From an uncultured Acidobacteriota bacterium (GTDB lineage: Bacteria > Acidobacteriota > Polarisedimenticolia > Polarisedimenticolales > Polarisedimenticolaceae): a stretch of 54,520 nt of DNA. The notes beneath the pieces are model-generated. The model searched no databases and was not told where the DNA came from. It saw nothing but the letters and a program-made list of their open reading frames with translations. Below, in pieces: positions 1,250 to 25,358 of this stretch. The translations under genes were made by a program, and so were the position numbers. Numbering within the stretch: the stretch's first letter is position 1; each line of letters starts with the position of its first letter. The stretch spans positions 1 to 54,520 of the forward strand of contig CALZKF010000003.1 of the NCBI GenBank assembly GCA_945787955.1, written 5' to 3'.

Positions 1250-4200
1250 CTACTCCACTACGTTGTAGACTTCGATCTCGGCCAGGCCGGTGCTCCATGT
1301 GGCTCCACTGGTGGCATTCACCGTCATCCGCACGCTGGTAACCGTTTTTGGGGCGAACAGGACCTCGTCTCCGGCGCCCGAGTCGTCCAGGGGGCCTACC
1401 GTGATGCTGGTGCCGTCGCTGAAGCTCAGGGTGCAGCCGTTGATGCGGTCAAACAGGTTGATACGGTCGAACAGCATGATCCTGTCGATAGTCTGGGGAG
1501 TATCCCAGGACAGCTCAATCCAGGCGCCGACCCGCTCGACCTGGGTCACCCATTCCCGGGTGCTGTCAGTGGGATAGCCGTCGATGAAGCCGTCCACCGC
1601 TTTGAGGGCGGTCTGACCACTGCCGGCCCTTTCCGTGGAGGCGGTCACCGAGGTCGCCGTCGGGGCGATATTGGTACCGCCGGGCCCAGGGGGCGCCAGG
1701 ACGGTAATGTCCACCGTGTCGGGAGTGCTGTCGTCGGTGCCGTCGTTGACGGTGAGGCGGAACGTCAGCAGCTGGTTCGATGTCAGGCCGGTCGGTGCAG
1801 GGAACGTAGGCGCCGCAGAGGCCGCACCGGTCAGGACTACCGGTAGTCCACCGGTCTGTATCCACGAATAGGTCAGGGAATCCAGGTCCGGATCGGAAGA
1901 GCCGGTGCCGTCCAACTGGACGGTGACGCCTTCGTCTACGCTCTGGTCCGGCCCGGAGTCGGCATTGGGCGGCCGGTTGGCGTCGGGATCTTCAAGGTAG
2001 ACCTCGATTTCGGCCAGTCCTACGCTCCAGGTCGATCCGGCAGTGGCATTCACCGTCATCCGGACACTGGTCACCGTCCGCGCTGTGAAGAAAATCTCGT
2101 CGCCGGCGCCGGCGTTGTCCAGCGCTCCGACAGCGATACTGGACCCGTCGCTGAACGTGAGTGTGCAGGCGGTGATCCGGTCGCTGAGATTGATCCGATC
2201 GTACAGGATAACGCGATCGATGGTCTGCGGCGTGGTCCAGGTCAGTTCGATCCAGGCTCCGATCCGTTCCGCCTGGGTGGACCACTCGCGGAGGCTGTCG
2301 CCCGGGTACCCGTCCACAAAACCGTCAACGGCCTTATCCGCACCCTGGCCGCTGCCGGCCCGGTCGGTTGAGGCGGTGACGGCGGACGCGTCCGGCGCGA
2401 TGTTGCCGATTCCTCCCCCCGGCGGCGGTGGGGCCATCGTGATGGTGACCAATGTGGTGTCCGGCAGGCTGTCGAATTCAAAGTCACTGACAACCAGCTG
2501 GAAGGTCAGGAGTTCGTCTGCGGCCAAACCGCTGGGGGCGAGGAAGGTCGGCGAAACAGCGCTGGCCGACGACAGCGTCACCGGGATGCCACCGGTCTGA
2601 CTCCACAAATAAGTAATCAAGTCGCCGTCCGGGTCGAAAGATCCGGTACCGTTCAGTTGAACCAGGACCCCTTCGTCCACCGTCTGACCCGATCCCGCAT
2701 TCGCCGTCGGCGCACGGTTGGGAGGTGCCGCGGCAAGGACGGTGATGGTGACGCTGTCCGCCGGACTGTCGGCCTCGCCGTCGTTGACGACCAGCCCGAA
2801 TGTCAGCAGCGCATCATCCAGCAGGCCCGTTGGTGCGACGAAGGTCGGCGATGGGCTGGTGGAGTCGGATAGGGCCACCGTGATGCCGCCGGTCTGGGAC
2901 CACAGGTAACTCAGCGGATCCAGGTCCGGATCGGAAGATCCGGTTCCGTCCAGCTGGACCAGGACACCTTCATCGGCAGTCTGATCCGGGCCGGCATCCG
3001 CCACCGGCGCCCGGTTGGCGTCGGGGTCCTGCAGGTAGACCTCGATCTCGGCGAGGCCGACGCTCCAGGTTGATCCTCGGGTGGCGTTCACCGTCATGCG
3101 AACGGAAGTGACGGTTCGGGTGGTGAACAGAATCTCGTCACCGGCGCCGTTATTGTTTAGAGCGCCGACGGGAACGGCAGACCCGTCGCTGAAGCTGAGG
3201 GTGCAGGCGGTGATCTGATCGTCCAGGTTCAGCCGATCGTACAAAATGACCCGGTCGATGGTCTGGGGTGTGCTCCAGGTCAGCTCGATCCAGGCACCGA
3301 CCCGCTCGCCCTGAGTGGACCATTCCCGGGTGCTGTCGCCGGGATAGCCGTCGATGAAGCCGTCCACCGCTTTCTCCGCGCCCTGGCCGCTGCCGGCCCG
3401 GTCCGTTGATGCGATAACGGTTGCTGCGTCCGGTGCGATGTTTCCGGCGCCTCCGCCTGGAGGGGGCGGGTCCATCAGGACCATGATGTCCACCAGGTCC
3501 GGTGCGCTGTCGTCCTGGCCGTCGTTGACGATCAGGCTGAAGGTCAGCGTTTCGTCGGCGGTGAGACCGACAGGTGAAACGAAGGTGGGAGAGGCGGCTG
3601 CGGGGGTAACCAGGGTGACCGGTGTTCCGACGGTCTGGACCCAGCTGTAAGTCAGCGGGTCGAGGTCCGGATCCGAGCTGCCGGTGCCGTCCAGCTGGAC
3701 AGTGACCCCTTCGCCGACCGACTGGTCCGGCCCGGCATCGGCCACCGGCAACTGGTTGGGCGGGTCGGCGGCGATCACGGTGACGGAAACCGAGTCCGGT
3801 GTGCTGTCCAGTTCGGAGTCGCTGACGACCAGCCGGAATGTAATGACCTCATTCGCTATCAGCCCGGTCGGGGCGGCGAAGGTCGGCATCGATGCCGCCG
3901 GATCTGAGAGGGTGACCGGGGTTCCTGCGGTCTGGAGCCATTCGTAGGTCAGGGCATCACCGTCCGGATCGGAACTTGCGCTTCCGTCCAATTGTACGAT
4001 CTCGGCCTCGTCGGCCGTCTGGTCCGGGCCGGCGTTGGCGATGGGGAAGTGGTTGCCGGTGGCGCTCTGGGCTTCGAAGGCCTGGAACTCGGCGAGCCCG
4101 ACGTTGCGGGTCAGGTCCCGGACCTGGTCCACCGTCATCCGGACGCTGGTCACGGTCCGTGCGCTGAATTCATAGATGCTGCTGCGGCCCCAGTTGTCCA

Positions 4201-5725
4201 GCGGGCCCAGGACGACGGAACTGCCATCACTGAAGTCGAGGGTTGCGCCCTTGATGTGGTCCTCATGGTTGGGGCGGTCGAACAGCATGACCCGCCCCAG
4301 GGTCACCGGCGTCGGGAAATCCAGCTGCAGCCAGGCGCCGATCCGTTCCCGTGACGAACTCCACTCCCGGGTTTCGTCCCCGGGATAGCCGTCGATGAAA
4401 CCGTCGATCGCCTTGAACGCTTCCGAGCCGGCCCGCTCGGATGACGCTGTGGCGGTGGCGCCGGGGGCGGCGTTCGGCCCGTAGGCCGGCGCCAGACTGG
4501 CGATGACGTCTACGCGGACCAGATCGGGCGGCGTCAGGGAGATACCGTCGCCAACGACCAGTTCGAACGTCAGGCTCTCGTTCCGGGAGAGTCCGGTAGG
4601 TGCGTTGAAGCTGGGAGACGGTCCGTCGGCGCCGGTCAGCGATACCGCCGTGCCGTCCACCTGGACCCAGGAATACGACAGCAGTTCGCCGTCCGGATCC
4701 AGGCTGGCTGATCCGTCCAGCGCGACGAACGCCCCCTCGAGGGCGACCTGGTCCGTACCGGCCTCCGCCACCGGGGGCCGGTTGGCGCCGGTCCGGCGCT
4801 CGGGCCAGAAAAACTCGTCTTTGTGGACGAAGCGGCCGATGTAGCCGTTCACCGCATCCTGGGTTTCATGTGATCCGACTGCCTGGTACTTGGCGTTCAG
4901 CGGATAATTCGTCCCCTGCAGCAGCAAAGGCACGTCGATGCTTTCCCGCTCGCTCCAGGCCAGCCCGACGGAAGCGAGTCCGGGGATCTCGTCAAAATAG
5001 ACCGTCGGGTCCAGCGGGTTCGGCCAGGAACTGTTGTCGCCGAACCAGACCAGGCTCTTGTGCAGGGTCGGATTGTAGCCGGGGTTTTCCGCAATGACCT
5101 CATCCAGAGCCTGGACCACGAAACGGCAGGTCGTGGAGTGGTCGTCGTGGCTGTCGAATTCCGAGGTCACGTAAATATGCTGCGGCAAGGAATCGCCGAT
5201 GATCGCCTTAAGGTCCAGGATGACGTTGCGGCCGTTGTAGGCCGCCGGGCTTCCGAAACGGTACGTGTGATAATCCGAGCCGCCCAGGCCGCGCTGGCCG
5301 TAAGTCACCGACTGGCCGTTGTGTGTCGTCAGCTGGTCGGTCAGGTTCGGAAAGGAGTTGAACAGAGCGTTCAGGTAGCCGTCCGGATACCCTAGAAAGA
5401 TTAGGTTCTGCTCCAGCATCCCCAGGTGGTCGATCTGGGCGGTGGAACCTTCGTCCTGGCGATCCAGGCCGCGCTGAATGCCGGCCCAGTCCCCGTTGGT
5501 CATGAACACGACCTGCACGGCGTCGCCTCGCTGCAGTGCGGCGTAGACCACACCGGCGGCTGTGATGATGTCATCGTCCGGATGGGGTGCGACCACCAGG
5601 CTGGAACCGAACGCGGCCCCGTGCAGCAGGATGCAGGCGATGAATACGGTGATCCGCAGCATCGCCGTGGTCGGCCCGGGATTCGTGGTATTGAACAGGT
5701 TCATGGCGACAGGTTTCTCCGACAC
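1250..5725 (-). CDS. Secreted PIG-L family deacetylase with multiple PKD-like and discoidin (F5/8 C)-like modules
   Basis: Signal-like N-terminus, SLVVAPHPDDDIITAAGVVYAAL (HPDD motif) and FDSHDDHSTT; then repeated ADAGPDQ..EG..VQLDGTGSSDPD..TYSW..Q and NIAP..ASTDRAGSGQ..KAVDGFIDGYPGD..REW modules. Start is GTG at 5725 or ATG at 5704. Confidence 0.88.
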   Translation of the reverse strand: MSEKPVAMNLFNTTNPGPTTAMLRITVFIACILLHGAAFGSSLVVAPHPDDDIITAAGVVYAALQRGDAVQVVFMTNGDWAGIQRGLDRQDEGSTAQIDHLGMLEQNLIFLGYPDGYLNALFNSFPNLTDQLTTHNGQSVTYGQRGLGGSDYHTYRFGSPAAYNGRNVILDLKAIIGDSLPQHIYVTSEFDSHDDHSTTCRFVVQALDEVIAENPGYNPTLHKSLVWFGDNSSWPNPLDPTVYFDEIPGLASVGLAWSERESIDVPLLLQGTNYPLNAKYQAVGSHETQDAVNGYIGRFVHKDEFFWPERRTGANRPPVAEAGTDQVALEGAFVALDGSASLDPDGELLSYSWVQVDGTAVSLTGADGPSPSFNAPTGLSRNESLTFELVVGDGISLTPPDLVRVDVIASLAPAYGPNAAPGATATASSERAGSEAFKAIDGFIDGYPGDETREWSSSRERIGAWLQLDFPTPVTLGRVMLFDRPNHEDHIKGATLDFSDGSSVVLGPLDNWGRSSIYEFSARTVTSVRMTVDQVRDLTRNVGLAEFQAFEAQSATGNHFPIANAGPDQTADEAEIVQLDGSASSDPDGDALTYEWLQTAGTPVTLSDPAASMPTFAAPTGLIANEVITFRLVVSDSELDSTPDSVSVTVIAADPPNQLPVADAGPDQSVGEGVTVQLDGTGSSDPDLDPLTYSWVQTVGTPVTLVTPAAASPTFVSPVGLTADETLTFSLIVNDGQDDSAPDLVDIMVLMDPPPPGGGAGNIAPDAATVIASTDRAGSGQGAEKAVDGFIDGYPGDSTREWSTQGERVGAWIELTWSTPQTIDRVILYDRLNLDDQITACTLSFSDGSAVPVGALNNNGAGDEILFTTRTVTSVRMTVNATRGSTWSVGLAEIEVYLQDPDANRAPVADAGPDQTADEGVLVQLDGTGSSDPDLDPLSYLWSQTGGITVALSDSTSPSPTFVAPTGLLDDALLTFGLVVNDGEADSPADSVTITVLAAAPPNRAPTANAGSGQTVDEGVLVQLNGTGSFDPDGDLITYLWSQTGGIPVTLSSASAVSPTFLAPSGLAADELLTFQLVVSDFEFDSLPDTTLVTITMAPPPPGGGIGNIAPDASAVTASTDRAGSGQGADKAVDGFVDGYPGDSLREWSTQAERIGAWIELTWTTPQTIDRVILYDRINLSDRITACTLTFSDGSSIAVGALDNAGAGDEIFFTARTVTSVRMTVNATAGSTWSVGLAEIEVYLEDPDANRPPNADSGPDQSVDEGVTVQLDGTGSSDPDLDSLTYSWIQTGGLPVVLTGAASAAPTFPAPTGLTSNQLLTFRLTVNDGTDDSTPDTVDITVLAPPGPGGTNIAPTATSVTASTERAGSGQTALKAVDGFIDGYPTDSTREWVTQVERVGAWIELSWDTPQTIDRIMLFDRINLFDRINGCTLSFSDGTSITVGPLDDSGAGDEVLFAPKTVTSVRMTVNATSGATWSTGLAEIEVYNVVE

Positions 5726-8700
5726 TCAGTTAAGGGTTTCAAAAACTTCCAGTTCCGCGAGTCCGATGCTCCAGGTCGACCCGCTCGTGGAGTCCACGGT
5801 CAACCGCACGCTTGTTATGGTCCGGGCGGAGAAGGTCAATTCGTTCCCTCCTCCCGTGTTGTCCAGCGCACCGGTTGACAGCGAGCTGCCGTCGCTGAAA
5901 GTCACCGTGCAGGCGGTGATGTGGTCGTCCGGATTCGGGCGGTCGTAGATCATGATTCGGTCCACCACCCTCGGCGCATCCCAGGCCAGTTCGATCCAGG
6001 CTCCGGCCTGCTGTACTACCGTGACCCACTCCCTGGTGCTGTCGTTGGGGTAGCCGTCGATGAATCCGTCCACGGCCTTTTCCGCGCCCTGGTTCCGGCC
6101 GGCGCGCTCCGAAGAAGCGGTAATCAAGTCCGCAACCAGTGCGATGTTGGTCCCTTCCGGAGGCGGTGGCGCGCTGGAAAGCACCGTAACCTCGACGAAA
6201 TCCGGTGCGCTGTCCAGGCTGCCGTCCCGAACCACCAGTTGGAAGACCAGGACTTCGTCCGCCGGGAGGCCGGCAGGGGATGTGAAGGTCGGCAGCGGGG
6301 AGGTCGGGTCGGACAGCGTTACGGCGGTTCCGGATGTCTGGGACCACAGCCAGGACAGCACGGCGCCTTCAGGGTCGGTACTGGCGCCGCCGTCCAGTTG
6401 GACAAGCACCGCCTCGTCCACGGTCTGGTCCGGGCCGGCGTCAGCCTCCGGTGGGAAGTTCGGCGTCATCCCGGCTGATTCGAAGACTTCGAATTCGGAC
6501 AGGCCCGCGTTGTAGGTGTCCGCGCCGACCACGTCGACGGTGAAGCGTACCCACAGGATGGTCCGTGGCTCGAAGTCGACGATTACTCCGGACCCGGCGT
6601 CTTCCAAGGGCCCGACCGGGATGGTGGAGCCGTTACTGAAAGTCAGGGTGCCCCCCTCGACGAAATCATACTCATTGGGCCGGTCGTAAAGCACGACCCT
6701 CTGGACGGTGCGGGGAAGAATCCAGGACAGTTCGATCCAGCCGCCCGGGCCCTCGCCCAGTGTGGCCCACTCCCGGGTGTGGTCCCCCGGATAGCCGTCA
6801 ACGAAACCGTCGATCGCCTTGACGGCGGTCTGGCCGGTGCGCTGGTTTTCCGTGGAGGCGACGGCGATCGCCTCAGGCGCGATATTGGCTCCCAGGGCGC
6901 CTGAGCCGGCACTGGCGCCGACGGTGATCTCCACCGTGTCGGAAATGCTGGTGAGCAGGCCGTCGTTCACCGTCAACTGGTACACCAGGACTTCGTTGGA
7001 GGCCAGCCCGGTCGGGGCGGTGAAGGTCGGAGCCACTGCCGACGGGTCGGACAACGGAGCCGGTGTGCCGGCGGTCTGGATCCACCATAGGGTCAACAGG
7101 TCACCGTCCGGGTCGGAACTGCCGGAACCGTCCAGTTGGACTGCTACCCCTTCCTCCACCGATTGGGCCGGACCGGCGTCGGCCACCGGAGCGCGGTTGA
7201 TGCCTGTTGTTCCGCTCTCGAACACTTCGAGCTCGGCCAGGCCGACATTGCCGGTCTGTGTTCCGACCCGGGTGGCCGTCACCCGCACACCGGTCACTTC
7301 CCGGGGCGCGAAGTCGATGGTCCGTCCTGTGCCGTCGTTGGGAACCGCATCGAATGCCAGGACCGCTCCATCGCTGAAGGTCAGGGTCCCTGTCACCATG
7401 TGATCGTATTCGTTGGGCCTGTCGTGCACCACAATCCGCTGGATCGTCCGCTGTCCGGCCCAGTCCAGCTGCAGCCACGCGCCGACCCCTTCATGTTGCG
7501 ATGCCCATTCCCGCGTGTGGTCGCCGGGGTACCCGTCCACTATCAGGTCGATCGCCTTCTCGGCGGTCTGGCCTGTGCCGGCGCTCTCGGTCGAGGCTGT
7601 GGCCAGCGCCTGGGGTGCGATATTGGCCCCGAGAGGGACGCCGCTGGCCGTGGCGAACACGGTAACCCGGGTTGAAGCAGGTGCACTGTCTGTGAAGCCG
7701 TCGTTGACGGTCAGGCGAAACAGGATGTTTTCGTCGGCGCTCAACCCGACCGGGGTGGTGAAGCTCGGGGTGGAGGAGGCGCTGTCGGACAGGGTCACCG
7801 GGACGCCGCCGGTCTGGACCCAGCGGTAGGTCAGCGGATCGCTGTCCGGATCATAGCTGCCTCTGCCGTCCAGGCTGACCGGAACGCCCTCGATGGCGGA
7901 CTGATCGGCGCCGGCGTTGGCTACCGGCGGCTGATTCTCGCCGCTGGCCAGCACCGGGTAGATCTCCATCTCGGCCAGGCCGATGTTCTGGCTCTGCCAG
8001 CCTGTAGACAGGATCCGGAAAGTCATAACCGATACTGTCCTGGCCGGGAATGTGATGATCGAAGACCGGCCGTAATTGTCCACTGCGTGGATCTCTACGG
8101 CGCTGCCGTCGTCGAACTCCAGCACACCTTCGATGATGTGGTCCTCATGGTTCGGCCGGTCGAAAAGGATGACTTTCCCAATCGTCACCGGGCGGAGCCA
8201 TTCGAACCGGATCCAGGCGCCGTCGGTCTCCCGCGTGGTGATCCACTCGGCGGTATGGTCGCCGGGATAGCCGTCGATGATGCCGTCCACCGCCTTGAAG
8301 CCCTCGGAGTCGGTGCGCTCGGTGGAAGCGGTCACCGTGGCTTGCGGGCCAAGGTTGTCGCCATAGACCGGTCCGTCGGCGGCAAGGACGGTGATTAGGG
8401 CGATATCCGGAAAACTGGTGAACACCCCATCCTGCACCGTCAGGGCGAAGGTCAGGATTTCGTCGGCCGGCAGCCCGGAAGGTGAGGAGAATGTGGGACT
8501 GGGGCTGGTGGGATCGTCCATTACAACCGGCGTGCCGGTAACCTGTTCCCAGGTGAAGAGCAACGGGTCGCCGTCCCCGTCGAAGCTGGCGGTGCCGTCC
8601 AGCTGCACCGGTACGCCCTCGGCCACCGTCTGGTCGAAACCGGCGTGCACGCGAGGTGGCTGATTCAGACCGGAATGAGACTCCACCCAGAAAAACTCAT
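1250..8700. repeat. Tandem protein-coding modules (PKD-like about 90 aa and discoidin-like about 140 aa), imperfect at DNA level
   Basis: Recurring translated blocks across both PIG-L genes; DNA blocks such as ccgtcgatgaagccgtccaccgc recur. Confidence 0.85.
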
Positions 8701-9574
8701 CCTTGTGGATGAACCGGCCCAGGTACCCGTCCAGACCACCCTGGGACACATGGGCGCCGGTGGCCTGGTACTTGGCGTTCTCCGGATAGTGCTGTGATTG
8801 CAGCGCCGGCATCACATCCAGGCTTTCCCGTTCTTCCCAGACCAAGCCGGTACCTTCCAGGGTCGGGATCGGCTCAAAATATTGGAACGGATCGAGGAGG
8901 TTGGGCCAGTTCTCGTCACCGCACCAGACGATGGTGGTGTGCAGCATCGGATTGTAGCCGGGATTGCCGGCCGACACCTGGTCCAGGGCCGCCTTCATCA
9001 CATGGTAGGTGGTGTAATGGTCCGAATGAGTATCGTGGATGCCGGTGACGAAAATGTGGTCGGGCAGGGAGGCGGCCAACAGGTCCGCCAGGTCTCCGAC
9101 CATGTTGGGCCGGTTGTAGTCCGCCGGCAGACCGTGGAGGTAAGTGTGGTAGTCCGAGCGGCCGAGCCCACGGCTGCCGTAGGTCGAGGATTGGCCGTTG
9201 GGGGCGAGATAGACATCGCTGGCCAGGGTGTAGTTGCGGTAGATCTCGTCCAGGCCGCCGTCGGGATAACCGAGGAAAATCAAGTCGTCCTCGATCATGC
9301 CGAGGAAATCGACTTGGGATTCCACAGCCTCATTCTGCCGGACAAAGCCGATAGCGGTGCCGCCTACGTCCCCGTTGGTCATGAATGCGACCTGGACCTG
9401 ATCGCCGCGCGCGAGGGCGTGATAAATTACACCGGCCGCCGTGATGATGTCGTCGTCCGGATGAGGCGCAAGGACCAGCACTCCGGCCAGGCTTACCGGC
9501 GCCAGGATCAGGAGCAAGGCGCCTGCCGCCAGGGCGACGCTACCCGTTCGAGCGATGGTACCTACTATTCTCAA
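5726..9574 (-). CDS. Secreted PIG-L family deacetylase, tandem paralog of the downstream gene
   Basis: VLVLAPHPDDDIITAAGVIYHALARGDQVQVAFMTNGD and DTHSDHYTTYH motifs; same alternating PKD-like / discoidin-like architecture. Confidence 0.88.
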   Translation of the reverse strand: MRIVGTIARTGSVALAAGALLLILAPVSLAGVLVLAPHPDDDIITAAGVIYHALARGDQVQVAFMTNGDVGGTAIGFVRQNEAVESQVDFLGMIEDDLIFLGYPDGGLDEIYRNYTLASDVYLAPNGQSSTYGSRGLGRSDYHTYLHGLPADYNRPNMVGDLADLLAASLPDHIFVTGIHDTHSDHYTTYHVMKAALDQVSAGNPGYNPMLHTTIVWCGDENWPNLLDPFQYFEPIPTLEGTGLVWEERESLDVMPALQSQHYPENAKYQATGAHVSQGGLDGYLGRFIHKDEFFWVESHSGLNQPPRVHAGFDQTVAEGVPVQLDGTASFDGDGDPLLFTWEQVTGTPVVMDDPTSPSPTFSSPSGLPADEILTFALTVQDGVFTSFPDIALITVLAADGPVYGDNLGPQATVTASTERTDSEGFKAVDGIIDGYPGDHTAEWITTRETDGAWIRFEWLRPVTIGKVILFDRPNHEDHIIEGVLEFDDGSAVEIHAVDNYGRSSIITFPARTVSVMTFRILSTGWQSQNIGLAEMEIYPVLASGENQPPVANAGADQSAIEGVPVSLDGRGSYDPDSDPLTYRWVQTGGVPVTLSDSASSTPSFTTPVGLSADENILFRLTVNDGFTDSAPASTRVTVFATASGVPLGANIAPQALATASTESAGTGQTAEKAIDLIVDGYPGDHTREWASQHEGVGAWLQLDWAGQRTIQRIVVHDRPNEYDHMVTGTLTFSDGAVLAFDAVPNDGTGRTIDFAPREVTGVRVTATRVGTQTGNVGLAELEVFESGTTGINRAPVADAGPAQSVEEGVAVQLDGSGSSDPDGDLLTLWWIQTAGTPAPLSDPSAVAPTFTAPTGLASNEVLVYQLTVNDGLLTSISDTVEITVGASAGSGALGANIAPEAIAVASTENQRTGQTAVKAIDGFVDGYPGDHTREWATLGEGPGGWIELSWILPRTVQRVVLYDRPNEYDFVEGGTLTFSNGSTIPVGPLEDAGSGVIVDFEPRTILWVRFTVDVVGADTYNAGLSEFEVFESAGMTPNFPPEADAGPDQTVDEAVLVQLDGGASTDPEGAVLSWLWSQTSGTAVTLSDPTSPLPTFTSPAGLPADEVLVFQLVVRDGSLDSAPDFVEVTVLSSAPPPPEGTNIALVADLITASSERAGRNQGAEKAVDGFIDGYPNDSTREWVTVVQQAGAWIELAWDAPRVVDRIMIYDRPNPDDHITACTVTFSDGSSLSTGALDNTGGGNELTFSARTITSVRLTVDSTSGSTWSIGLAELEVFETLN

Positions 9575-9894
9575 TGTACAGACCCGTCCATCGTTTCAAG
9601 CTGCGCCCTGACAGGCATCCGGGGCATTTCGGTTCTGCACCCCGCGGCTGCCGCAATGCACTGAAATTACAGTGACTTCAGGGGGGCAGCAATGCCCAAT
9701 TCGTAACCGGAGACCCTAGGAATCAGATCGTGATCGACCTAAATCGATCCGGATCTGTTGATGTTTTCGATTATGACCTATATTTGTAGAGAATTAAAGG
9801 TGCAGCAGGACGGGGTGACCCGGTTTCTGGAACGGATGCCTGATTTTTCTTTAAGAGATTGTGAAGATCGGCATTTTCCAGATAGGGGGCTAGG

Positions 9895-10716
9895 ATGAGC
9901 GAGTTGCCGTTGTTTTTTCCGAGTCGGTCCGGTGAACTGTTCGGCACCCTGCACCGGCCCGAGGGCCCGGCGCGGGAGATCGGGTTTGTGTTCTGTTCTC
10001 CTCTACTGGAAGAGAAGCTTTGGGCCCATCGCCTGTTCGTCAATTTTGCCCGGGAACTGGCCGCCTGCGGTTATGCGGTGATTCGTTTCGACTACATGGG
10101 CCACGGCGACAGTGACGGAGTGTTCGAGGATGCCAGCATCAATACCAGACTGGCCGACATCGATGCGGCTGCCGATAATCTTCTGCGGATGACCGGGGTT
10201 GAAAAGGTCGGGTTGCTCGGGTTGAGGTTCGGCGCGACCCTGGCAGCGGTGGCGGCGGATCTTGTGCCTGATAAATACCGGGACCTGATCCTGTGGGAGC
10301 CGTTGCCGAAAGGGTCCGCCTATATGCAGGAACTGCTCAGGATCAATCTGGCGACCCAGATGGCTTCCTACAAGGAGATACGTGTCAATCGCAAGGTGAT
10401 GGCGGCTTCCCTGGCCGACGGGGGACTGGTCAACGTCGACGGTTACGGCCTGACAGGCCCGCTGTTCCAGGAGGCTCAGGGCATCAACCTCCTGGACGGG
10501 CCGAGATCTTACCGGGGGAGGACCCTGATCGTACACCTCCATCGCCAGGCCGAGGCGATCGCTCCGGTTCTGGAACAGTTGGGGGCTCTGTATGCCTCGG
10601 TGAGGATGGACAAGGTGGCGGTTGAGCCGTTCTGGAAAGAAATCAAGGCGTACGTTCCGTCCTGCAGGCCGCTATACGACATTACGAGGCGGTGGCTGGA
10701 AGAGGATCGGGCATGA
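9895..10716 (+). CDS. Alpha/beta hydrolase, exosortase A system-associated hydrolase-like
   Basis: LPLFFPSRSGELFGTLHRPEGPAREIGFVFCSPLLEEKLWAHRLFVNFARELAACGYAVIRFDYMGHGDSDG; GLRFGATLAA. Confidence 0.75.
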   Translation: MSELPLFFPSRSGELFGTLHRPEGPAREIGFVFCSPLLEEKLWAHRLFVNFARELAACGYAVIRFDYMGHGDSDGVFEDASINTRLADIDAAADNLLRMTGVEKVGLLGLRFGATLAAVAADLVPDKYRDLILWEPLPKGSAYMQELLRINLATQMASYKEIRVNRKVMAASLADGGLVNVDGYGLTGPLFQEAQGINLLDGPRSYRGRTLIVHLHRQAEAIAPVLEQLGALYASVRMDKVAVEPFWKEIKAYVPSCRPLYDITRRWLEEDRA

Positions 10717-11595
10717 CGGCCGAAGCGGTGTCGTTCCCCAACCGGAACGGCAGGCAACTGTTCGGGATCTTCCACCCGGCCGGAAAGGGGCGCAAGGAGA
10801 CCTGCGTCGTGCTTCTCAGCCCCGGCATCAAGAACCGTGTTGCGCCTCACCGCCTCTACGTCAAGCTGTCACGGCATCTTCAGGGACTGGGGTACGATGT
10901 GTTCCGCTTCGATCCGGAAGGGCTGGGAGACTCCGAGGGAGAATGCGATTTCAAGTGGGTCGCCGACCTGTACGGGGCGATTCAGAGCGGTTGTTTCAAG
11001 GAGGATACTTTGGCGGCGCTGGATTGGCTGGAAGCCAACAAAGGCGCGGGCAAGTTCATTGTCGGCGGACTCTGCGGCGGCGCAATCACCGGGATGTTCG
11101 CCGGCCGGGATGATCCCCGGGTGACCGGCTTGCTGAGTTTCGGCATCCCGGTGGTTCTGGAGTCGTCCGATCCGAAAACTGAGAGGTTCGTCAGCGAGGG
11201 TCAGAAGGACAAGCTCCGCCGCGGCTACCTGGCAAGGTTGTTCCAGCCCCGTTCCTGGCTGCGGCTTTTGACGTTCCAATCCGATTTCCGCCTGTTGTTC
11301 AAGTCTCTGCTTCGCCGCCGCCGGCCCGGTGCGGAGGCCGAGGCTCCGTCCCGGGGTGGCGGAGACCCGTTCAACCCCGAATTTCCATCCGCTTTTGTTC
11401 AGCGGCGCGGACAGGATCTCCTGGGAGTTCGAGGAACTGTTCGCCGGCCGCCACGAGACGATGCTGGAGAAATATCGCTCCCGGATAGATCGTCAGATCA
11501 TCGAGGGCGCCAACCACATCATGTCGTTCCAGGAGTGGCAGGACACCATGGTGCGGACCGTGGATCGCTGGCTCGAAGAACGCTTCTCCTGTTGA
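10713..11595 (+). pseudogene. Second exosortase A-associated-like alpha/beta hydrolase, frameshifted near 11385
   Basis: Start MTAEAVSFPNRNGRQLFGIFHPAGKGRKETCVVLLSPGIKNRVAPHRLY in one frame; the family-like C-terminus (LLFSGADRISWEFEELFAGRHETMLEKYRSRIDRQIIEGANHIMSFQEWQD) is in the +1 frame. Removing one C of the CC at 11385-11386 joins them as NPEFHPLLFSGADRI. Confidence 0.75.
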
Positions 11596-11679
11596 CGGAA
11601 CCGCCGATTCCTTATTACATTGAGCGGCACCAAGGCCCGACGATCCCGGCCGGATGGCGCCCGAAGGGAGAACCGCTCC

Positions 11680-13719
11680 ATGAAATGGCTGATCTCAGGC
11701 AGTATCCCTCTGCTGATGCTCCTACTCTCCTGTAACACCGCCGTGGCTGATATCTGCAAACAGGAGTCGTTCGACGTGCCCGGATCGAATCTGGCGTATG
11801 GCCTGGATTCGGTGCGGGGTGACCGTTTCACCGGAACCTGCGGGTATCCGGTGGCCTGGAGCACCGGCGCACAGTGGTGCGTGGAGCACGCCGATTCCGG
11901 CGGGGACGGAGGCCAGGGCGACGGCGCGGCGCACATCATTTTCCGTGCAGGCGAGAGCCAGTTCAACGCCGGGTGGTTTTGGGGGCACGCATGCGGGTCG
12001 TGGCTCAATGGCGACACGCTCCGGATCCGGTTCAAGATACGATTCGATGAAAATTATATCTGGAACGAAAGCCACAACAACAAATTCATGATCTGGGGCA
12101 GTGGCGGATATCGCATGATCCTGTTCATCCGTGGGGAGTACTGGACCTCCGCCAACTGCCGGCCGTACGGGTCCGGTTCCTACAGCCGCTGCTCCAACGA
12201 CGGATCGGAATGTTCCGGCGATGGGGACTGCATGGATCCCAACGGCGTGCAGTACACCTGCGTGGAACAGGGGACATACCTCAACAGCGGCGCCCTGGCG
12301 GTCGGACACGACATCAGCAACCCCTGCGCCGGGCCGGCCCCTGCCGCAGGTGGCGCCGGTCTCGGCGGCACCGACTGGTTCTACGTTCAGGTCGAGGTCA
12401 AGAGCGGCCCGGACGGATTCGAAAAGATCTGGATCAACAACAATAATTACGACCAGCCCAATGCCTGTACCGGAAGCGCCACCGAATGCCCCGGCTCAAC
12501 GGAGTTCGACTACCCGCCGGGCAGCAATCCTGTCTCGGACATCCTGGTCGACGGCTGGGATACCGAACAGACCGTAGGCGATTTCTGGACCGATGCGGTT
12601 TCCCGGGACATGGGTTATTACATCGACGATATGATCTGGGAGCAGAACGGATCCTTCGATGCCGTGTGGTACCCCGGCGGCGTGCCGGCCTGCGCCGACG
12701 GCCGGGACAACGACGGGGACGGCCTGACCGATCACCCGGCCGATCCGGGCTGCAGTTCGGCGGACGATCCAGGCGAGAACAACTGCAACAACGGTATCAT
12801 CGACGGTGGCGAGGTTTGCGACGGTTTACAGTTGGGAGGGCAGTCCTGCAGCACTCAGGGCTTCGAGGGCGGCGTTCTGGGGTGTGCCTGGAACTGTGTG
12901 GATTACGACACCACCGACTGCGCCGGCTCATCCACGGGCAGCAGCGCCGTGCCGATGTTTACCTCCGATTTCGAATCCGGTGACTTTTCGGAGTGGGACG
13001 GCCGCCGGGAGCAGAGCCCGGGAGATCTTCAGGTCGTTGCCGACGCCGCATGCGCCGGCGGCAGCAGTTGCGCCAGGGCGCGGTTGACCGCAGGCACCAA
13101 CAGCGACAGTTATGCGGACCACTACTTCGGTGACCATGCGCTCGTCGGCGACCCGAAAGTTGAAGAACTTTGGCTGGAAACCAGCGTGATGTTCGAAGCC
13201 GGCTACGTGTGGCCGAACTCCGGGCAGAAAATTGCGATCCTCAATGCCACCGACGGAAGCAGTACCCAGAGACGGTATCAGGCGATCCTGAAGGTCGATC
13301 CGGACGGCCGCTGGTCACTGCAGCACAGTGATATCGACGATTGGCAGTTTTTCGAAAAACCGCAAAACGTCGGCACCCCGCTGACGGTTCCGTTCGACTC
13401 CTGGGTCCGTCTCAAACTTTACGCCGCCATGAACCAGCCGGGGCTCAGCGACGGCGTCCTCCGGCTGTGGGTGGATGGGGTTCTGAAGGCGGAGTACACC
13501 GACGTCGATCTCCGTGAATCAACGGAATACGGCTTCGGAAAACTGATCCTGTCCAGTTGGGCCACGGACGCCAGCGGCTCCGACGGTTTCGAATGGTACG
13601 ACGACTGGGTCCTGTCCGCGTCGGACCCGGACGCCGGATCCGGCCTTCCTCCGGCCGGGGCGCCGGGGACGGTTGGCGGGGTTGTGCGCACCGATACCTA
13701 CCCTGGAGAGGACAACTGA
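11680..13719 (+). CDS. Secreted ConA-like/polysaccharide-lyase-like protein with central Cys/Asp-rich repeats
   Basis: SD GGGAG, signal peptide MKWLISGSIPLLMLLLSCNTAVA; NNKFMIWGS..RMILFIRGEYW; CADGRDNDGDGLTDHPADPGC..CNNGIIDGGEVCDG; C-terminal FTSDFESGDFSEWDGR..GQKIAILNATDG. Paralog of 25359-27527. Confidence 0.75.
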   Translation: MKWLISGSIPLLMLLLSCNTAVADICKQESFDVPGSNLAYGLDSVRGDRFTGTCGYPVAWSTGAQWCVEHADSGGDGGQGDGAAHIIFRAGESQFNAGWFWGHACGSWLNGDTLRIRFKIRFDENYIWNESHNNKFMIWGSGGYRMILFIRGEYWTSANCRPYGSGSYSRCSNDGSECSGDGDCMDPNGVQYTCVEQGTYLNSGALAVGHDISNPCAGPAPAAGGAGLGGTDWFYVQVEVKSGPDGFEKIWINNNNYDQPNACTGSATECPGSTEFDYPPGSNPVSDILVDGWDTEQTVGDFWTDAVSRDMGYYIDDMIWEQNGSFDAVWYPGGVPACADGRDNDGDGLTDHPADPGCSSADDPGENNCNNGIIDGGEVCDGLQLGGQSCSTQGFEGGVLGCAWNCVDYDTTDCAGSSTGSSAVPMFTSDFESGDFSEWDGRREQSPGDLQVVADAACAGGSSCARARLTAGTNSDSYADHYFGDHALVGDPKVEELWLETSVMFEAGYVWPNSGQKIAILNATDGSSTQRRYQAILKVDPDGRWSLQHSDIDDWQFFEKPQNVGTPLTVPFDSWVRLKLYAAMNQPGLSDGVLRLWVDGVLKAEYTDVDLRESTEYGFGKLILSSWATDASGSDGFEWYDDWVLSASDPDAGSGLPPAGAPGTVGGVVRTDTYPGEDN

Positions 13720-14807
13720 CAGGTGAGTCGCTCTGCATCGGCGGCGCCGAGCTGGTGGTGTCCAATCTTGCCCGTAACATGGACGCAGGACGTTTCGATG
13801 TGCGGGTCGGGTACATCAAGAAACTGGGGGAAATCGGTGATTCCCTCATCGCCGATGGCTACCGGGTTGACCCGGTCGCACCTCCCGGGATCCCCGGCGG
13901 GCACTACCTGACGTTCCTGAATCTACGGAGATACGTTCGGCGGGAGAAAATTCGGATCGTCCATACCCACGGCGTCGAGGCGATGGTGGATGCCGCCCTT
14001 TGCCGGAGCATCACGTCGGATGTCCGTGTGATGAACACGTTCCATTTCGGGAACTACCCCCACATCAGGCCGGGGAACCGCCGGCTGGAAAACCTGTTCT
14101 GGAGAGGCCCCGACAGCCTGGTGGCGGTAGGCACCCGCCAGTGCACATCGATCCGGGAGACCTACGGAATTCCGGAGGACCGCATCACCACGGTATACAA
14201 CGGTGTCGTGGAGCATCGGTCCGGCATCAACCGGGAACTGCTGGCGCCGTACCTGGACAGCGGAAAGGTGCTGATCGGCTCCATTTCCACCATGATCGAA
14301 CAGAAGGGGATTCCCGATCTTCTGGAAGTGGCGGCAGCCCTGCGGCAGCGCACCGACCGGGCCCTGTTCCTGGTGGCGGGGGACGGCCGTCTCCGGGAGG
14401 AGATGATCGCCCGCCGGGACGCTATGGGGCTGCAGGACACGGTGCACTTTTTCGGTTGGGTTCAGGATGCCGCCGTTACGTTCCTGCCGGCGCTGGATAT
14501 CTTCCTGCAGACCTCGCTGTGGGAGGCGATGTCCATGGTCATTCTGGAGGCGATGGCCGCCGGGAAGGCGATCGTCGCAACCGACGTCGGGGACAATCGG
14601 TTCATGATCGACAACGGTCGCACCGGTGCTCTGACCCAGCCCAGAGACGTGGCCGCCATGACCGATGCCCTGGAAAAACTTTGCGTCGATCCTTCGCTGC
14701 GGGAACGGTTCGGAGCCGATGCGGAAGCCGATTACCGCACCCGATTCACCGTGGACGTCATGGTATGCCGCTACCAGCAACTGTACGACGAACTGCTCAA
14801 GGGGTAG
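13716..14807 (+). CDS. Glycosyltransferase family 4 (start codon unclear)
   Basis: IGGAELVVSNLARNMD, IVHTHGVEAMVDAAL, VYNGVVEHR, LFLVAGDGRLREEM, FLQTSLWEAMSMVILEAMAAGKAIVATDVGDN. No ATG/GTG/TTG near the expected start; CTG at 13716 follows GGAGAGG. Confidence 0.8.
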   Translation: MTGESLCIGGAELVVSNLARNMDAGRFDVRVGYIKKLGEIGDSLIADGYRVDPVAPPGIPGGHYLTFLNLRRYVRREKIRIVHTHGVEAMVDAALCRSITSDVRVMNTFHFGNYPHIRPGNRRLENLFWRGPDSLVAVGTRQCTSIRETYGIPEDRITTVYNGVVEHRSGINRELLAPYLDSGKVLIGSISTMIEQKGIPDLLEVAAALRQRTDRALFLVAGDGRLREEMIARRDAMGLQDTVHFFGWVQDAAVTFLPALDIFLQTSLWEAMSMVILEAMAAGKAIVATDVGDNRFMIDNGRTGALTQPRDVAAMTDALEKLCVDPSLRERFGADAEADYRTRFTVDVMVCRYQQLYDELLKG

Positions 14808-14813
14808 GTGCGG

Positions 14814-15458
14814 TTACAGTTGTCCGGCGGCCGACGCCAGGTCGTAGCCCCGGTTACGGAACACCGGCAGGACCTTGTCCAGGATCTCCGGCAGATAACG
14901 GTTGTCATCGTGGAGCACGACGATCTGCCCGGGGGCGGCCTGTTCCTCAAGCAGCGCCGCCGCCGTCATGGCCGCCTCGCCGGACCGGCAGGCCCAGTCC
15001 CGCACCCCCAGAGTCCAGTTCACCGTCCGGAGCCCAAGGAGCCGTGGCACCAGGAGGCTCACCGGGGACAGGTGGCCCTTGGGAGGGCGGAACAGGGCCG
15101 GCGTGATGCCGGTTGCCCGGCGCACCACATCCTGGCAGCGGGCCACGTCCCGCTTGTATTCCCGGAACGGTGGATCTCTTTCGTTGTTATGGGTGTAAGT
15201 GTGATTGCCCAGCACGTGACCCTCGTCCCGGATGCGGGCCAGGAGGTCGGGGCAAGCTTCCGCCAGGCGGCCGACGACAAAGAAGACCGCCCGGGCATCG
15301 AAGGCCTGCAATCGGTCCAGAACCGCCGGCGTGACTGCCGGGTCGGGGCCGTCGTCGAAGGTCAGGAGCAGGCGGTCACCGGCCGGCGCCGGCAGTGAAC
15401 GGATCAGCAGGCTGCGGGGGATCAGGTTTTTGACCCCTGCCCGGATCGTCCGGATCAT
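14814..15458 (-). CDS. Polysaccharide deacetylase (NodB / CE4-like)
   Basis: DRLLLTFDDGPDPAVTPAVLDRL, HVLGNHTYTH, LFRPPKGH motifs. Confidence 0.92.
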   Translation of the reverse strand: MIRTIRAGVKNLIPRSLLIRSLPAPAGDRLLLTFDDGPDPAVTPAVLDRLQAFDARAVFFVVGRLAEACPDLLARIRDEGHVLGNHTYTHNNERDPPFREYKRDVARCQDVVRRATGITPALFRPPKGHLSPVSLLVPRLLGLRTVNWTLGVRDWACRSGEAAMTAAALLEEQAAPGQIVVLHDDNRYLPEILDKVLPVFRNRGYDLASAAGQL

Positions 15459-15485
15459 GCCCTTAGCACTCCCTCGAACCGCGGT

Positions 15486-16370
15486 TCAGACATAATTGAG
15501 CCTCCCCAGGGTGGGGGCCAGCACGTCCTGGACGAGCCGCTGCTGTGCCGCAGTCAACTCGCTGGTCCAGCGCACGTTCATGTTGCGCAGGCCGTAAGAC
15601 TCCACCGATCGCTGGAAGGCGGGTTCCCAGGGCAGGCCGGCGAACTCCACAACCTTCTTCATGGTGTTGACCGGATCGTCCAGCAGCGTTTCGTAGCGCA
15701 ACTCAAAGAACTGGTCGTCATCGAGATATTGCCTGCCGTTTTCCACCGCTTCCATGGCGATCTTCCACTGGATCGCCGCCAGGGCGACATAGGAACGACC
15801 ATGGCGCTCCCATTCGGCCTGGTGTGCGGCGGACAGTTCGCCCCAGCGCCAGTTCTGCGGCCCCTGGTAACCGAGCCACCAGCCGACGTTGATCATCGAA
15901 TTCACCACAGCCCGGCCGTCACGCAACACGTGGAGGAACCGGGCGTCGGGGAAGATCTCCCGAATGTACCCGATCCGTGGCCATCCGGTCGCTTTGAGCA
16001 TGATCCGGTCACGCCTGGGGGTCGTGAATTCGGCCAGCACCTGGCGCATCTTCTTTTTGTTGCGCTCGGTGACGTCACCGGGGACCAGGTCCCGGCAGGT
16101 GCGCCGGAACCCTTTGGCATGGTACTCCCAGAAATCAAAGCATTCCCAGGGCGTGAACCGCTTGGCCAGCATCGGCCCCAGCAGCGGCATGTCCAGGCCG
16201 CGCATCAGCATCCGGTTGCGGCCCGGCTTCCCCGGGAACCGCTTGCCGACCGCCGAAAGCCAGGACAGGTTGGGGTGGTGGGCCAGTATGTTGTGGACCA
16301 CAGTGGACCCGCTGCGTCCGATCCCGATGATGAAGATCGGTTGTTGTACCTTCATAATGTGGTGCTCCAC
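15486..16370 (-). CDS. Sulfotransferase family protein
   Basis: IFIIGIGRSGSTVVHNILAHHPNLSW (5'-PSB loop) and FLHVLRDGRAVVNSMI (3'-PB). Start may be the inner ATG at 16355 (MKVQQPIF). Confidence 0.9.
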   Translation of the reverse strand: MEHHIMKVQQPIFIIGIGRSGSTVVHNILAHHPNLSWLSAVGKRFPGKPGRNRMLMRGLDMPLLGPMLAKRFTPWECFDFWEYHAKGFRRTCRDLVPGDVTERNKKKMRQVLAEFTTPRRDRIMLKATGWPRIGYIREIFPDARFLHVLRDGRAVVNSMINVGWWLGYQGPQNWRWGELSAAHQAEWERHGRSYVALAAIQWKIAMEAVENGRQYLDDDQFFELRYETLLDDPVNTMKKVVEFAGLPWEPAFQRSVESYGLRNMNVRWTSELTAAQQRLVQDVLAPTLGRLNYV

Positions 16371-16379
16371 GGCCGAAAA

Positions 16380-17447
16380 CTACCAGATACCCAGAATGCG
16401 GGCAAGAAACATCGGAAGGGTGCGAGCCCCGCCGTCGTAAATGTTGTTCCGTTTCAGTAGGAAGCGGTCGTCCCCTGCTCCAACATGCCCCCGGCGGGTT
16501 GAAAACGCCAGCCGGTAGCCTGCCTCACGCACCAGGCTTGCGATCGCTTCGTCGCAGTTGCCGTTGGGGTAGCTGAAAAACTCCACCGGCCTGCCGAGTC
16601 GCTCCTGAATGAGTCGGCCGGATTCCCCGATCTCGTGTCTCGCGTCGGTGTCCCCAAGGGTCAGTATGCGATGATCCAGGCCGTGGCTTCCGAATACGAC
16701 GCCGGCTTTCTGCATGGTCTGCACTTCTTCCCAGTTCAGGAAGTGGCGCCGGCGTCCCTCCGGTTCCGCAGCATCCGGGAGATGGGATTCCAGCCTGCGG
16801 ACCCAGGCATCGATCGCCGTTCGAGGTTGGCTCTTCCAGGCCGGAACGAACCGGGAAACGGCGTCCCGGGCCGGGCCGTCTGCACCGGCCAGCAGCGGTG
16901 CGATGCCGGCCAGTTCGGGATCGGCCTCGATCCTGGTGTGGAGGCCGGGGTCGGCCCTGCAAGCCAGCCGAGCGTCCAGAATCGCGCCGGTCATCGATTC
17001 CTGCCAGAACCGCCGGTCGGTCCCGACGAACCCGGCGGCCAGGAAGATGAGCGGGCGGATGTCGTACTTCTGCAGGATCGGCAGGGCGTGTTCCAGGTTG
17101 TCCTGCCAGCCGTCGTCGAAGGTCACCATGCAGGACATGGGCGGAAACGGCAGCCTTTCCTCGATGCAGCCGGCGAACTGTTCCGGAGTCAAGACCTGGA
17201 ACCGCTCCCGAACAGCCCGCATGTGCATTTCGAAGGTAGCGGTGCTGACGATGATCCCCGGATGGGAAGGGCTGTTGGGTATACGTTGCGTCGGAAGGAC
17301 CCGGTGGTACATCAAGACCAGCGCGCGATCCTGCATGGCGGCCCGCAATTTCCAGGTCGTCACGCCGGAGCGGTAAAGGAGACTTGCCGTGCCGGACCGG
17401 ATATACGGTCCCAGTCGCCGGACCGTGGATCGGATATAATTTTTCAT
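16380..17447 (-). CDS. Polysaccharide deacetylase family protein (NodB / CE4-like)
   Basis: ALVLMYHRVLP, CMVTFDDGWQDNLEHALPILQKYDIRPLIFL, VFGSHGLDHRILT. ATG at 17447 (MKNYIRSTVRRLG) preferred over the longer ORF start. Confidence 0.9.
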   Translation of the reverse strand: MKNYIRSTVRRLGPYIRSGTASLLYRSGVTTWKLRAAMQDRALVLMYHRVLPTQRIPNSPSHPGIIVSTATFEMHMRAVRERFQVLTPEQFAGCIEERLPFPPMSCMVTFDDGWQDNLEHALPILQKYDIRPLIFLAAGFVGTDRRFWQESMTGAILDARLACRADPGLHTRIEADPELAGIAPLLAGADGPARDAVSRFVPAWKSQPRTAIDAWVRRLESHLPDAAEPEGRRRHFLNWEEVQTMQKAGVVFGSHGLDHRILTLGDTDARHEIGESGRLIQERLGRPVEFFSYPNGNCDEAIASLVREAGYRLAFSTRRGHVGAGDDRFLLKRNNIYDGGARTLPMFLARILGIW

Positions 17448-17569
17448 CTGCCTGGGCGGCCCTCGCGAAAAAATGCCCTGAACCGCGAGTATAATATACG
17501 TTCCGCAGGGTCCGGAGCGGTCCGAGTCGGCTGTGGAAAACAGCTTCACCGGAGGCGGAGGGAGGCAGG

Positions 17570-18562
17570 ATGGCCGACTCAGAGAGAGGACCGTTCCTGA
17601 GCGTCGTCGTGCCTGCACGGAATTCGGCGGATACCATCGCGGAATGCCTCCGTTCTCTCCGGCGGCACCTGCCGCAGACCTGCTCTGAAGTGATCGTCGT
17701 GGACAACGGCTCCAGCGATGGCACCGGGCGAATCGCACGGGAGGAAGGGGCTCGGGTGATCGAGGCGCCCGGGGTTTTCGTCTCCGAGGTGCGCAACGTG
17801 GGCGCCAGGCAGGCAACCGGGGACGGGGAACTGCTGGGGTTCATCGATTCCGATTGCACCATCACACCCGGTTGGTACCAGGCGGCGGTGGCTCTTCTGG
17901 AGAGTGACCGCACCATCGGTGTGGCCGGCAGCCGGCACGTCATCCCGGAGAATCCGTCCTGGGTGGAGGAGGTCTGGTTCCGATCGCACCGCTCCATGGA
18001 ACGGAAAGACCCTCTGGATGTGGCCTACATCCCTGCAGGGAATCTGGTGGTGCGGAAGAAGGTGTTCCGGCAGGTCGGCGGTTTCGACCCGACCATGGAA
18101 ACCGGTGAGGACCCGGACCTGTGCAACCGGATAGGTTCGGCCGGGTTCCGGATCGTGGAATGGGATGCTATCCGCTGTGTACATCTGGGGGAGCCGAAGT
18201 CTCTTGTGCAGGTCTTCCGCCGTGAGAGATGGCATGGCCGCGGTGTCCGGCTGCGGTACGCCGACGGCAGGCTCGCACCGGTCGTCGTTGCAACCGCGCT
18301 GTTTCTCGTGCTGGTCCTGGCCGGTGTGGCCGGACTCGCCGCCGCCGTTGTTGTCGGGTTGACACTCCCGGTGGCGGCCCTGGTTCCGGCCCTGGCGATC
18401 CCTGCGGTGTTCGCGATCACAAAGGGCAGGAAATTACCGGTTACCCAGCTCCCGGCGCTGGCTCTGGTGTATACATTCTATTTTCTGGGACGTGCCGCTT
18501 CCCTTCCCGTTGCGGCGGCCCGGGCGATGTTCAAAAGGAAGGGGCCCACGGCTGATGCCTGA
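17570..18562 (+). CDS. Glycosyltransferase family 2
   Basis: LSVVVPARNSADTIAECLRSLRR, EVIVVDNGSSDGTGRIA, GFIDSDCTITPGW, C-terminal TM segments. Confidence 0.92.
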   Translation: MADSERGPFLSVVVPARNSADTIAECLRSLRRHLPQTCSEVIVVDNGSSDGTGRIAREEGARVIEAPGVFVSEVRNVGARQATGDGELLGFIDSDCTITPGWYQAAVALLESDRTIGVAGSRHVIPENPSWVEEVWFRSHRSMERKDPLDVAYIPAGNLVVRKKVFRQVGGFDPTMETGEDPDLCNRIGSAGFRIVEWDAIRCVHLGEPKSLVQVFRRERWHGRGVRLRYADGRLAPVVVATALFLVLVLAGVAGLAAAVVVGLTLPVAALVPALAIPAVFAITKGRKLPVTQLPALALVYTFYFLGRAASLPVAAARAMFKRKGPTADA

Positions 18563-19709
18563 ACCGCGCCGCAAGGTCCTGCACCTCATCGACAGCTATC
18601 GGCTCGGTGGTCCGGGCAAGACCATCATCAATTCCGCCCGCTTCATCGATGAACACCGCTTTGAAATCCAGGTCGCTTCCTTCGCTCCCGAGGACGAGCG
18701 GCTGAACGAGTTCGGCCGCATGGTGCACTCGGCCGGGATCCGTTACCACGGCCTGCAGGAAACAGGCCGATTCGACCTCTCCCAGGCCCGGGTGCTCCGG
18801 GAACTGCTGCTGAAGGAAGAGTTCGACATCCTCCACACTCACGGGTATAAACCGGACATCCTCGGGTACCTGGCATGCAGGAAAGCGCCCGGGACCCGGC
18901 AGGTTACGACCCACCACGGCTGGATCGAGAATAGCGCCACCCAGAAGCTGTTCACCCGCAGCGCCATCGCCCTGACGCGGAAGATGGACGGCACGGTCTG
19001 CGTTGCCTCGCACCTGATGGACCGGCTCCCCGCCCGTGTGCGTGATTCCTGGCGCAGTACGCTGATCCACAATGCCCTGGTTCTTGAAGACTACGTTCCG
19101 TCGGGCCACAGGGCGACGATCCGCCGTAATCTCGGAATTACCGATGATGCTGACCTGATCGGAGTTGTGGGACGGCTGAGCCTGGAGAAAGGTTGCCTGG
19201 AGGCGCTGGATGCGTTCGCTGAACTGCACCGCCGGGTGCCCGGCGTTCACCTGGCGTTCATCGGCGAGGGTCCGATGGAGGCAGAACTGAAGTCCAAACT
19301 GGACGGCAGCGGCCTCGGGAACAAGGTTCACTTCACGGGGCATCAGTCGCCGGTTCAACCATGGCTCGAAGCGCTGGACCTGTTACTCTCCCCATCCAGG
19401 ACCGAAGGGCTGTCCAATGTGTTGCTGGAAGCGCTGGCGTTCCGGCTGCCGGTAGTGGCGACCCGGGTTGGAGGCAATGGTGAAATTATCCGGGACCAGG
19501 TCAGCGGCCTGCTGGTGGAACCGCTGCGGCCGGGTCTGCTGGCCGCCGGTATGGAGCATGTCGTGACCGATCCAGGAGCTGCACGTGAGATGGCCCAAAC
19601 CGGCCAGCGCACCGTACGGGAATCGTTCGGATTCGAGACCCGCATGCGCAAGATGGAGGCGTTCTACGAAGCGGTCCTCGCCGGAAGCCGCGGGGAGGCC
19701 GGCAGGTGA
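18555..19709 (+). CDS. Glycosyltransferase family 4
   Basis: KVLHLIDSYRLGGPGKTIINSARF, ILHTHGYKPDILGYLA, IGVVGRLSLEKGCLEALDAF, LLSPSRTEGLSNVLLEALAFRLPVVATRVGGNGEII. Confidence 0.92.
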   Translation: MPEPRRKVLHLIDSYRLGGPGKTIINSARFIDEHRFEIQVASFAPEDERLNEFGRMVHSAGIRYHGLQETGRFDLSQARVLRELLLKEEFDILHTHGYKPDILGYLACRKAPGTRQVTTHHGWIENSATQKLFTRSAIALTRKMDGTVCVASHLMDRLPARVRDSWRSTLIHNALVLEDYVPSGHRATIRRNLGITDDADLIGVVGRLSLEKGCLEALDAFAELHRRVPGVHLAFIGEGPMEAELKSKLDGSGLGNKVHFTGHQSPVQPWLEALDLLLSPSRTEGLSNVLLEALAFRLPVVATRVGGNGEIIRDQVSGLLVEPLRPGLLAAGMEHVVTDPGAAREMAQTGQRTVRESFGFETRMRKMEAFYEAVLAGSRGEAGR

Positions 19710-22275: not shown

Positions 22276-22306
22276 AGGCTCGGGCCGGAAAGCAAAGGAG
22301 ATAGCG

Positions 22307-23368: not shown

Positions 23369-23916
23369 CGGTGCAGGCCGAATCGGTCCATCCGCTCCTG
23401 GCCTGTGCGTTACACGCCTGGCAGGAACTCGAACTGGAAGTAGGGGAGACCGCCCTGGTAGCCGGCGACGGGCCGCTGGCGGATATCTTCCGCCTGGCGG
23501 CATTGTGGCATGGCGCCAGTCCGGTGATCAAACTCGGTGCCGGCGGCGGACAGGTCGAGGGCGTGCGGAGCTGCGAGGTGCCGGACGACGACCCGGAATC
23601 GGTCCTTGATGAACTGGCGGTACAGTTGGCCGAGGCGCCGGCGGTCGCCGCGGTGGACCTGACCGGCCGGGCGGTGGTGGCGGACATGTTCTTCGAAATA
23701 CTGCCGCGGTATTCCCGACTTCTCCTGGCTGGAGATACCGGTGAGCCGCTTACCATCGACTACTACGTCAATATCCACCGCAAGGGGATCGGGGTTCTCG
23801 CCCGCAGGGCCGATCCGAATACGGCGGATGCCCGCATGTTGCAGCGTGCATCGGACCTGCTCGCATCCGCCGAGCGGGCGGCGGCCTGCCGCAAGGCGGC
23901 CGACTCCGGTTCATGA
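23365..23916 (+). CDS. Short MDR/Rossmann-like protein (half-dehydrogenase), function unclear
   Basis: 183 aa; LELEVGETALVAGDGPLADIFRLAALWHGASPVIKLG resembles an MDR NAD-binding domain without the catalytic domain; overlaps both neighbours by 4 nt. Confidence 0.6.
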   Translation: MTVQAESVHPLLACALHAWQELELEVGETALVAGDGPLADIFRLAALWHGASPVIKLGAGGGQVEGVRSCEVPDDDPESVLDELAVQLAEAPAVAAVDLTGRAVVADMFFEILPRYSRLLLAGDTGEPLTIDYYVNIHRKGIGVLARRADPNTADARMLQRASDLLASAERAAACRKAADSGS

Positions 23917-25136: not shown

Positions 25137-25275
25137 CAATTACCAGTCCGTTCTGACGGATTTGCAATCGTTCCGGCCCCGACGGGGGCCGGCTGCCTGC
25201 CACCTGGTGGGTAAAAACAGGCTGTCATGCACATTCCTGCGTGCATTGTGGGGTTTGGAGGACTAACTTGATAGT

Positions 25276-25291: not shown

Positions 25292-25358
25292 CGAATGAAG
25301 GTCACCCGGTTCCTAATAATGTTTTGGGTCGACCACACCTTGCAGAGGAAGGAAAGTA

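Follow-up and report, generated by a model that had tools for sequence, protein, structure and literature searches.

Bacterial polysaccharides change in charge and stickiness when they are de-N-acetylated, a step usually ascribed to CE4-type enzymes, of which PgaB/IcaB and the NodB-type enzymes differ in fold and family from the LmbE/PIG-L proteins. The LmbE-like (PIG-L) enzymes, CE14 in CAZy, include MshB, BshB and the Pyrococcus diacetylchitobiose deacetylase. The known LmbE-like enzymes covered in PMC4101496 are single-domain proteins with small substrates, and their metal ligands and general base are tabulated there (Table 1). Herein, we analyzed two neighboring minus-strand genes, A and B, in a 54,520-nucleotide stretch of DNA (the window) from an uncultured Acidobacteriota bacterium of sediment. 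Their products are like the CE14 enzymes in the HxDD plus H motif, the PIG-L Pfam match and the predicted fold, but differ from them in extra conserved segments of the catalytic head, a signal-like N-terminus and a tail of approximately 1,000 aa made up of binding modules and spacers. The task proposed for them, deacetylation of a polysaccharide by an exported enzyme, is that of PgaB/IcaB and the NodB-type CE4 enzymes, and Pfam gave no NodB or polysaccharide-deacetylase (CE4) match in A or B. The parts are of known kinds; what is new is how they are combined, the subfamily of the head and, in carrier genomes, the near-exclusive association with DUF7402. This arrangement is plausible but unusual, and the literature searched yielded no mention of DUF7402 and no paper joining PIG-L with PKD and discoidin terms.

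Gene A (5726–9574) encodes a protein of 1282 aa and gene B (1250–5725) an ORF of 1491 aa, both at the coordinates first given. The start of gene B is probably an inner ATG, at 5704 or 5662, rather than the GTG at 5725; GGAGA lies directly upstream of ATG 5704, and either ATG leaves a signal-like stretch ahead of the head. The signal-like N-terminus that the initial annotation had described in each protein was supported when judged by eye and suggests export. Pfam placed PIG-L (PF02585) once in each protein, in agreement with the earlier description (70.1 and 74.9 bits against a cut-off of 28.2). It also gave four DUF7402 matches per protein (635 and 622 bits), and K319L-like PKD domains numbered four in A and six in B. 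The GC3 of the pair was 0.80, inside the range of the neighbors tested (0.75–0.83), so that a recent foreign acquisition of the pair is unsupported.

Every module was positioned with our own HMMs, and the D modules (DUF7402) were also located by the DUF7402 search. In gene A, the catalytic head (8663–9481), delimited with the help of an alignment and a structural model, is followed by four PKD-D pairs: PKD 1 (8381–8665) and D1 (7958–8356), PKD 2 (7652–7936) and D2 (7220–7624), PKD 3 (6917–7198) and D3 (6482–6886), and PKD 4 (6179–6460) and D4 (5741–6148). In gene B, the head (4781–5599, HMM and alignment) is followed by PKD 1 (4499–4783), D1 (4076–4474), the doublet of PKD 2 and PKD 3 (3473–4054), D2 (3035–3442), the doublet of PKD 4 and PKD 5 (2435–3016), D3 (1997–2404), PKD 6 (1694–1978) and D4 (1265–1672). 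The repeats of gene B were also visible in the DNA as copies 1038 bases apart, corresponding to one PKD-PKD-D unit. The alternation of PKD and discoidin modules described earlier for both proteins is thus strict only in A, because B has two PKD-PKD doublets.

The heads carry the HPDDD and HxDH-type motifs noted in the initial annotation. In A these comprise His38, Asp40 and Asp41, with HSDH at 183–186; in B they comprise His48, Asp50 and Asp51, with HDDH at 193–196. The HxDD plus H pattern agrees with the LmbE metal-ligand table (PMC4101496). In an alignment of 12 head sequences, HPDDD (motif I) and two residues of motif II, Asp and His (D156 and H157 of the alignment), were kept in all rows covering them; in the Polyangiaceae head, Arg replaces the first His of HxDH. 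The alignment also revealed a segment TY..RGLG..DYH.Y..G..A.Y, located between the two motifs, as well as HKDEFFW at the end of the head. These two segments, RGLG-DYHTY and HKDEFFW, mark the head as a distinct subfamily; they had no counterpart in the displayed alignments with solved relatives, and they probably shape the pocket.

The AlphaFold (AF2) model of the head had a pLDDT of 86.9 and a pTM of 0.89. All 42 solved structures matched by Foldseek at E ≤ 0.001 had the LmbE fold (Rossmann-like), the best being MshB (E 2.8e-9), followed by the Pyrococcus diacetylchitobiose deacetylases, with moderate TM-scores of 0.5–0.6. A sequence-profile search of the PDB led to the same MshB and Pyrococcus deacetylase group. 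The GalB hydratase (5cgz) was also among the structural matches, indicating that the fold alone is no proof of deacetylation.

For the D module, the second copy of B was used for folding, and the AF2 model (pLDDT 95) was a beta-sandwich of the CBM32 carbohydrate-binding type. It had 241 structural matches at E ≤ 0.001; among the 50 of these that were listed, all were CBM32, F-type lectin, or enzymes with galactose-binding-like domains of such kind. The top matches were the chitosan-binding modules 4zz5, 4zy9 and 4zxe (DD1 and DD2 of the Paenibacillus sp. IK-5 chitosanase), which were matched by the sequence profile too. The D module is like these modules in predicted fold, core Trp, strand order and profile match. 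The F5_F8_type_C family (PF00754) scored 87 and 81 bits on the two proteins (cut-off 28.2), bearing out the expected relation of the repeats to carbohydrate-binding folds. The earlier assignment of the modules as F5/8C-like stood in part: F5_F8_type_C and REJ overlap as weaker matches, but the best score belongs to DUF7402.

Differing from DD1 and DD2, DUF7402 has its own set of invariant residues (Asp27, Glu40, Trp41, Asp69, Asp75, Gly129, Leu130 and Glu132; Arg70 and Asn72 are close to invariant), which appear as the motifs EW, DRPNxxD and GLAE. The chitosan contacts of DD1 we take to be Glu14, Arg31 and Glu61. At the columns of the presumed contacts Arg31 and Glu61, the D module has the invariant Glu of EW and the conserved Arg of DRPN, respectively. 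Chitosan, suggested as a ligand by the best fold matches, is weakened by this charge swap; judging from these columns, the D module is unlikely to bind it in the manner of DD1, and its ligand is probably another one.

Gene A shares an intergenic gap of 320 bases (9575–9894), likely a divergent regulatory region, with a rightward abhydrolase gene at 9895. This gene leads a plus-strand locus of polysaccharide type (9895–27527) with two alpha/beta hydrolases, sugar dehydrogenases (a Zn-dehydrogenase and a GFO/IDH protein), three GT4 glycosyltransferases (13557, 18492 and 23913), one GT2 (17570) and a Wzx-type flippase (19706). Two plus-strand genes (11620–13719 and 25359–27527) bracket the glycosyltransferase genes; their products, of approximately 700 aa, each have a polysaccharide-lyase-like domain at the C-terminus. 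Within the locus, a minus-strand gene (15486–16370) encodes a sulfotransferase (Sulfotransfer_3, 99 bits). Together with the adjoining N-deacetylase candidate it recalls, by analogy, heparan-type N-deacetylation followed by N-sulfation, although the compartments may differ.

GT4 genes were found within 10 kb of the head gene in four of nine lineages, against an expectation of at most 0.64 (P ~0.002). This test covered one glycosyltransferase family in a small sample, counting two Polarisedimenticola genomes as one lineage and taking lineages as independent, with two Methylobacter included, one of which had GT4 neighbors and the other none. The remaining five lineages (L033, L035, L037, L038/L039 and L040) had no GT4 within 10 kb, which rules out a universal tie to polysaccharide loci. 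The link therefore appears real but is not universal.

Synteny of the tandem pair extends to Ca. Polarisedimenticola svalbardensis (assembly JACXWD; PMC8528874), of the same genus as the source genome, where the pair is split over the ends of two contigs. At one of these ends a copy lies by the same helicase as here, and at the other its partner lies next to the abhydrolase and polysaccharide genes also found here. An assembly artifact is therefore unlikely. In the tree, both of the svalbardensis copies clustered with B (98/96), suggesting that a duplication or conversion took place later in that lineage.

The head subfamily is rare and patchy across phyla. Full-length heads were present in only 4 of the 396 Acidobacteriota sampled, with a gap in the scores between 285 and 72 bits, and elsewhere in Myxococcales, Polyangiaceae, two Methylobacter, Defluviicoccus and one Desulfobacterales. 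In a draw of 251 genomes from the order of Methylobacter, full-length heads were confined to the two Methylobacter; among 237 Myxococcota, one genome had a full-length head and three had weaker relatives at 114–164 bits. No head relative was found in viral contigs, and plasmids gave short ordinary PIG-L matches only, none spanning 80% of the head. Besides the carriers, 388 Pseudomonadota and 223 Myxococcota were sampled, and none of them gave DUF7402 at E ≤ 1e-20. All eight DUF7402 copies of the source genome lie in A and B, and in ten further carrier genomes 25 of 26 copies lie in PIG-L proteins, a near-exclusive pairing that applies to carriers only since these genomes were picked for having the head. 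Weaker DUF7402 matches occur in other proteins of Acidobacteriota at large. Across members, the tails were more variable than the heads: the G007 member ends in TSP3 repeats, the Polyangiaceae member has InlB-type repeats, and the Desulfobacterales member (L035, 362 aa) is a head only. In a PIG-L protein of Ca. P. svalbardensis (L036, 2–4501), 17 MopE-type metal-binding repeats replace most of the PKD and D modules.

With roughly even confidence, we interpret A and B as exported, multivalent, glycan-tethered N-deacetylases of a surface or matrix polysaccharide. In the head of A, His38-Asp41-His186 would bind one divalent metal, with Asp40 as the general base; in that of B, the ligands would be His48-Asp51-His196 and the base Asp50. 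The head would strip an amino sugar of its N-acetyl groups. The CBM32-like DUF7402 tail, with the PKD domains as spacers, may keep the enzyme on the polysaccharide, and the substrate here would most likely be the product of the divergent locus at 9895–27527, a polysaccharide of the surface or matrix. The analysis shows the domain content, predicted folds, the intact metal motif, conservation and synteny, and the GT4 enrichment; we infer export, activity, substrate, D-module binding and action on the polysaccharide of the cell itself. The initial annotation had proposed such an enzyme, and the LmbE metal motif, the carbohydrate-binding fold of the D module, the signal-like N-terminus and the GT4 enrichment in four of nine lineages are consistent with it; the link it drew to the adjacent polysaccharide locus suits the neighborhood but falls short of proof, with five lineages lacking a nearby GT4. 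A broader proposal, in which we have somewhat less than even confidence, is that these heads form a separate, previously undescribed subfamily of exported LmbE-fold proteins, patchy over several phyla, which de-N-acetylate a polymeric polysaccharide of the surface or matrix, to which dedicated DUF7402 modules hold them, and so use another fold for the task of CE4-type enzymes such as PgaB. If these LmbE-fold enzymes do act on extracellular polymers, they would be a second enzyme class for polysaccharide de-N-acetylation and would give DUF7402, a Pfam domain with no function assigned, a likely role in glycan binding.

The polymer might instead be foreign. Secreted for scavenging, the proteins would deacetylate amino-sugar polymers or oligomers (chitin, peptidoglycan or mucin-like matter of the sediment) for food and bind the foreign glycan through their D modules. 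Some of the nearest solved relatives are known to deacetylate chitobiose, and several members lie away from GT4 genes. We nevertheless consider this unlikely, as the GT4 enrichment in four lineages points to synthesis loci, and no chitinase, hexosaminidase or SusC/SusD-type uptake genes were seen among the annotated neighbors within the window.

The head might also act on another class of substrate, such as a glycolipid, a glycopeptide or a non-acetyl amide or ester, while the tail merely anchors it to the cell surface or matrix. The LmbE fold serves small molecules and a hydratase (PMC4101496; the GalB match), the RGLG-DYHTY and HKDEFFW segments are without counterpart in the solved relatives displayed, and the head is kept while tails change to MopE or TSP3 repeats. 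The tails are mostly of glycan-binding type, however, and the nearest solved relatives act on N-acetylglucosamine derivatives, which makes this quite improbable in our estimation. That the heads are no longer catalytic and the proteins serve as matrix scaffolds or lectins, as the many binding modules per head and the Arg of the Polyangiaceae member might suggest, is very improbable: HPDDD and the motif II Asp and His are kept in all alignment rows that reach them, and a member consisting of the head only exists.

Several further proteins were observed in the relatives and in the window. The sole non-PIG-L copy among the 26 DUF7402 copies is in a beta-helix, fn3 and DUF7402 protein encoded next to a Methylobacter PIG-L gene (L034, 15508–18111, minus strand). 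Five proteins of approximately 600 aa (L119, L120, L121, L122 and L123) have DUF7402 at the C-terminus, and the N-terminal parts of those of L119 and L121 had no match in the Pfam scan. A protein from a genome of the same family (G004; L118, 286–2010) likewise has a PIG-L-like N-terminal half followed by DUF7402, but differs in its single D module, the lack of PKD, a PIG-L score under the cut-off and the motif HADDW instead of HPDDD. On the contig of the polysaccharide locus, a minus-strand gene (49380–50660) encodes a GGDEF and PilZ protein, a possible c-di-GMP regulator. At the contig end, an open-ended plus-strand gene (51522–54518) encodes at least 999 aa of a protein that has eight repeats of the TSP3 calcium-binding type.
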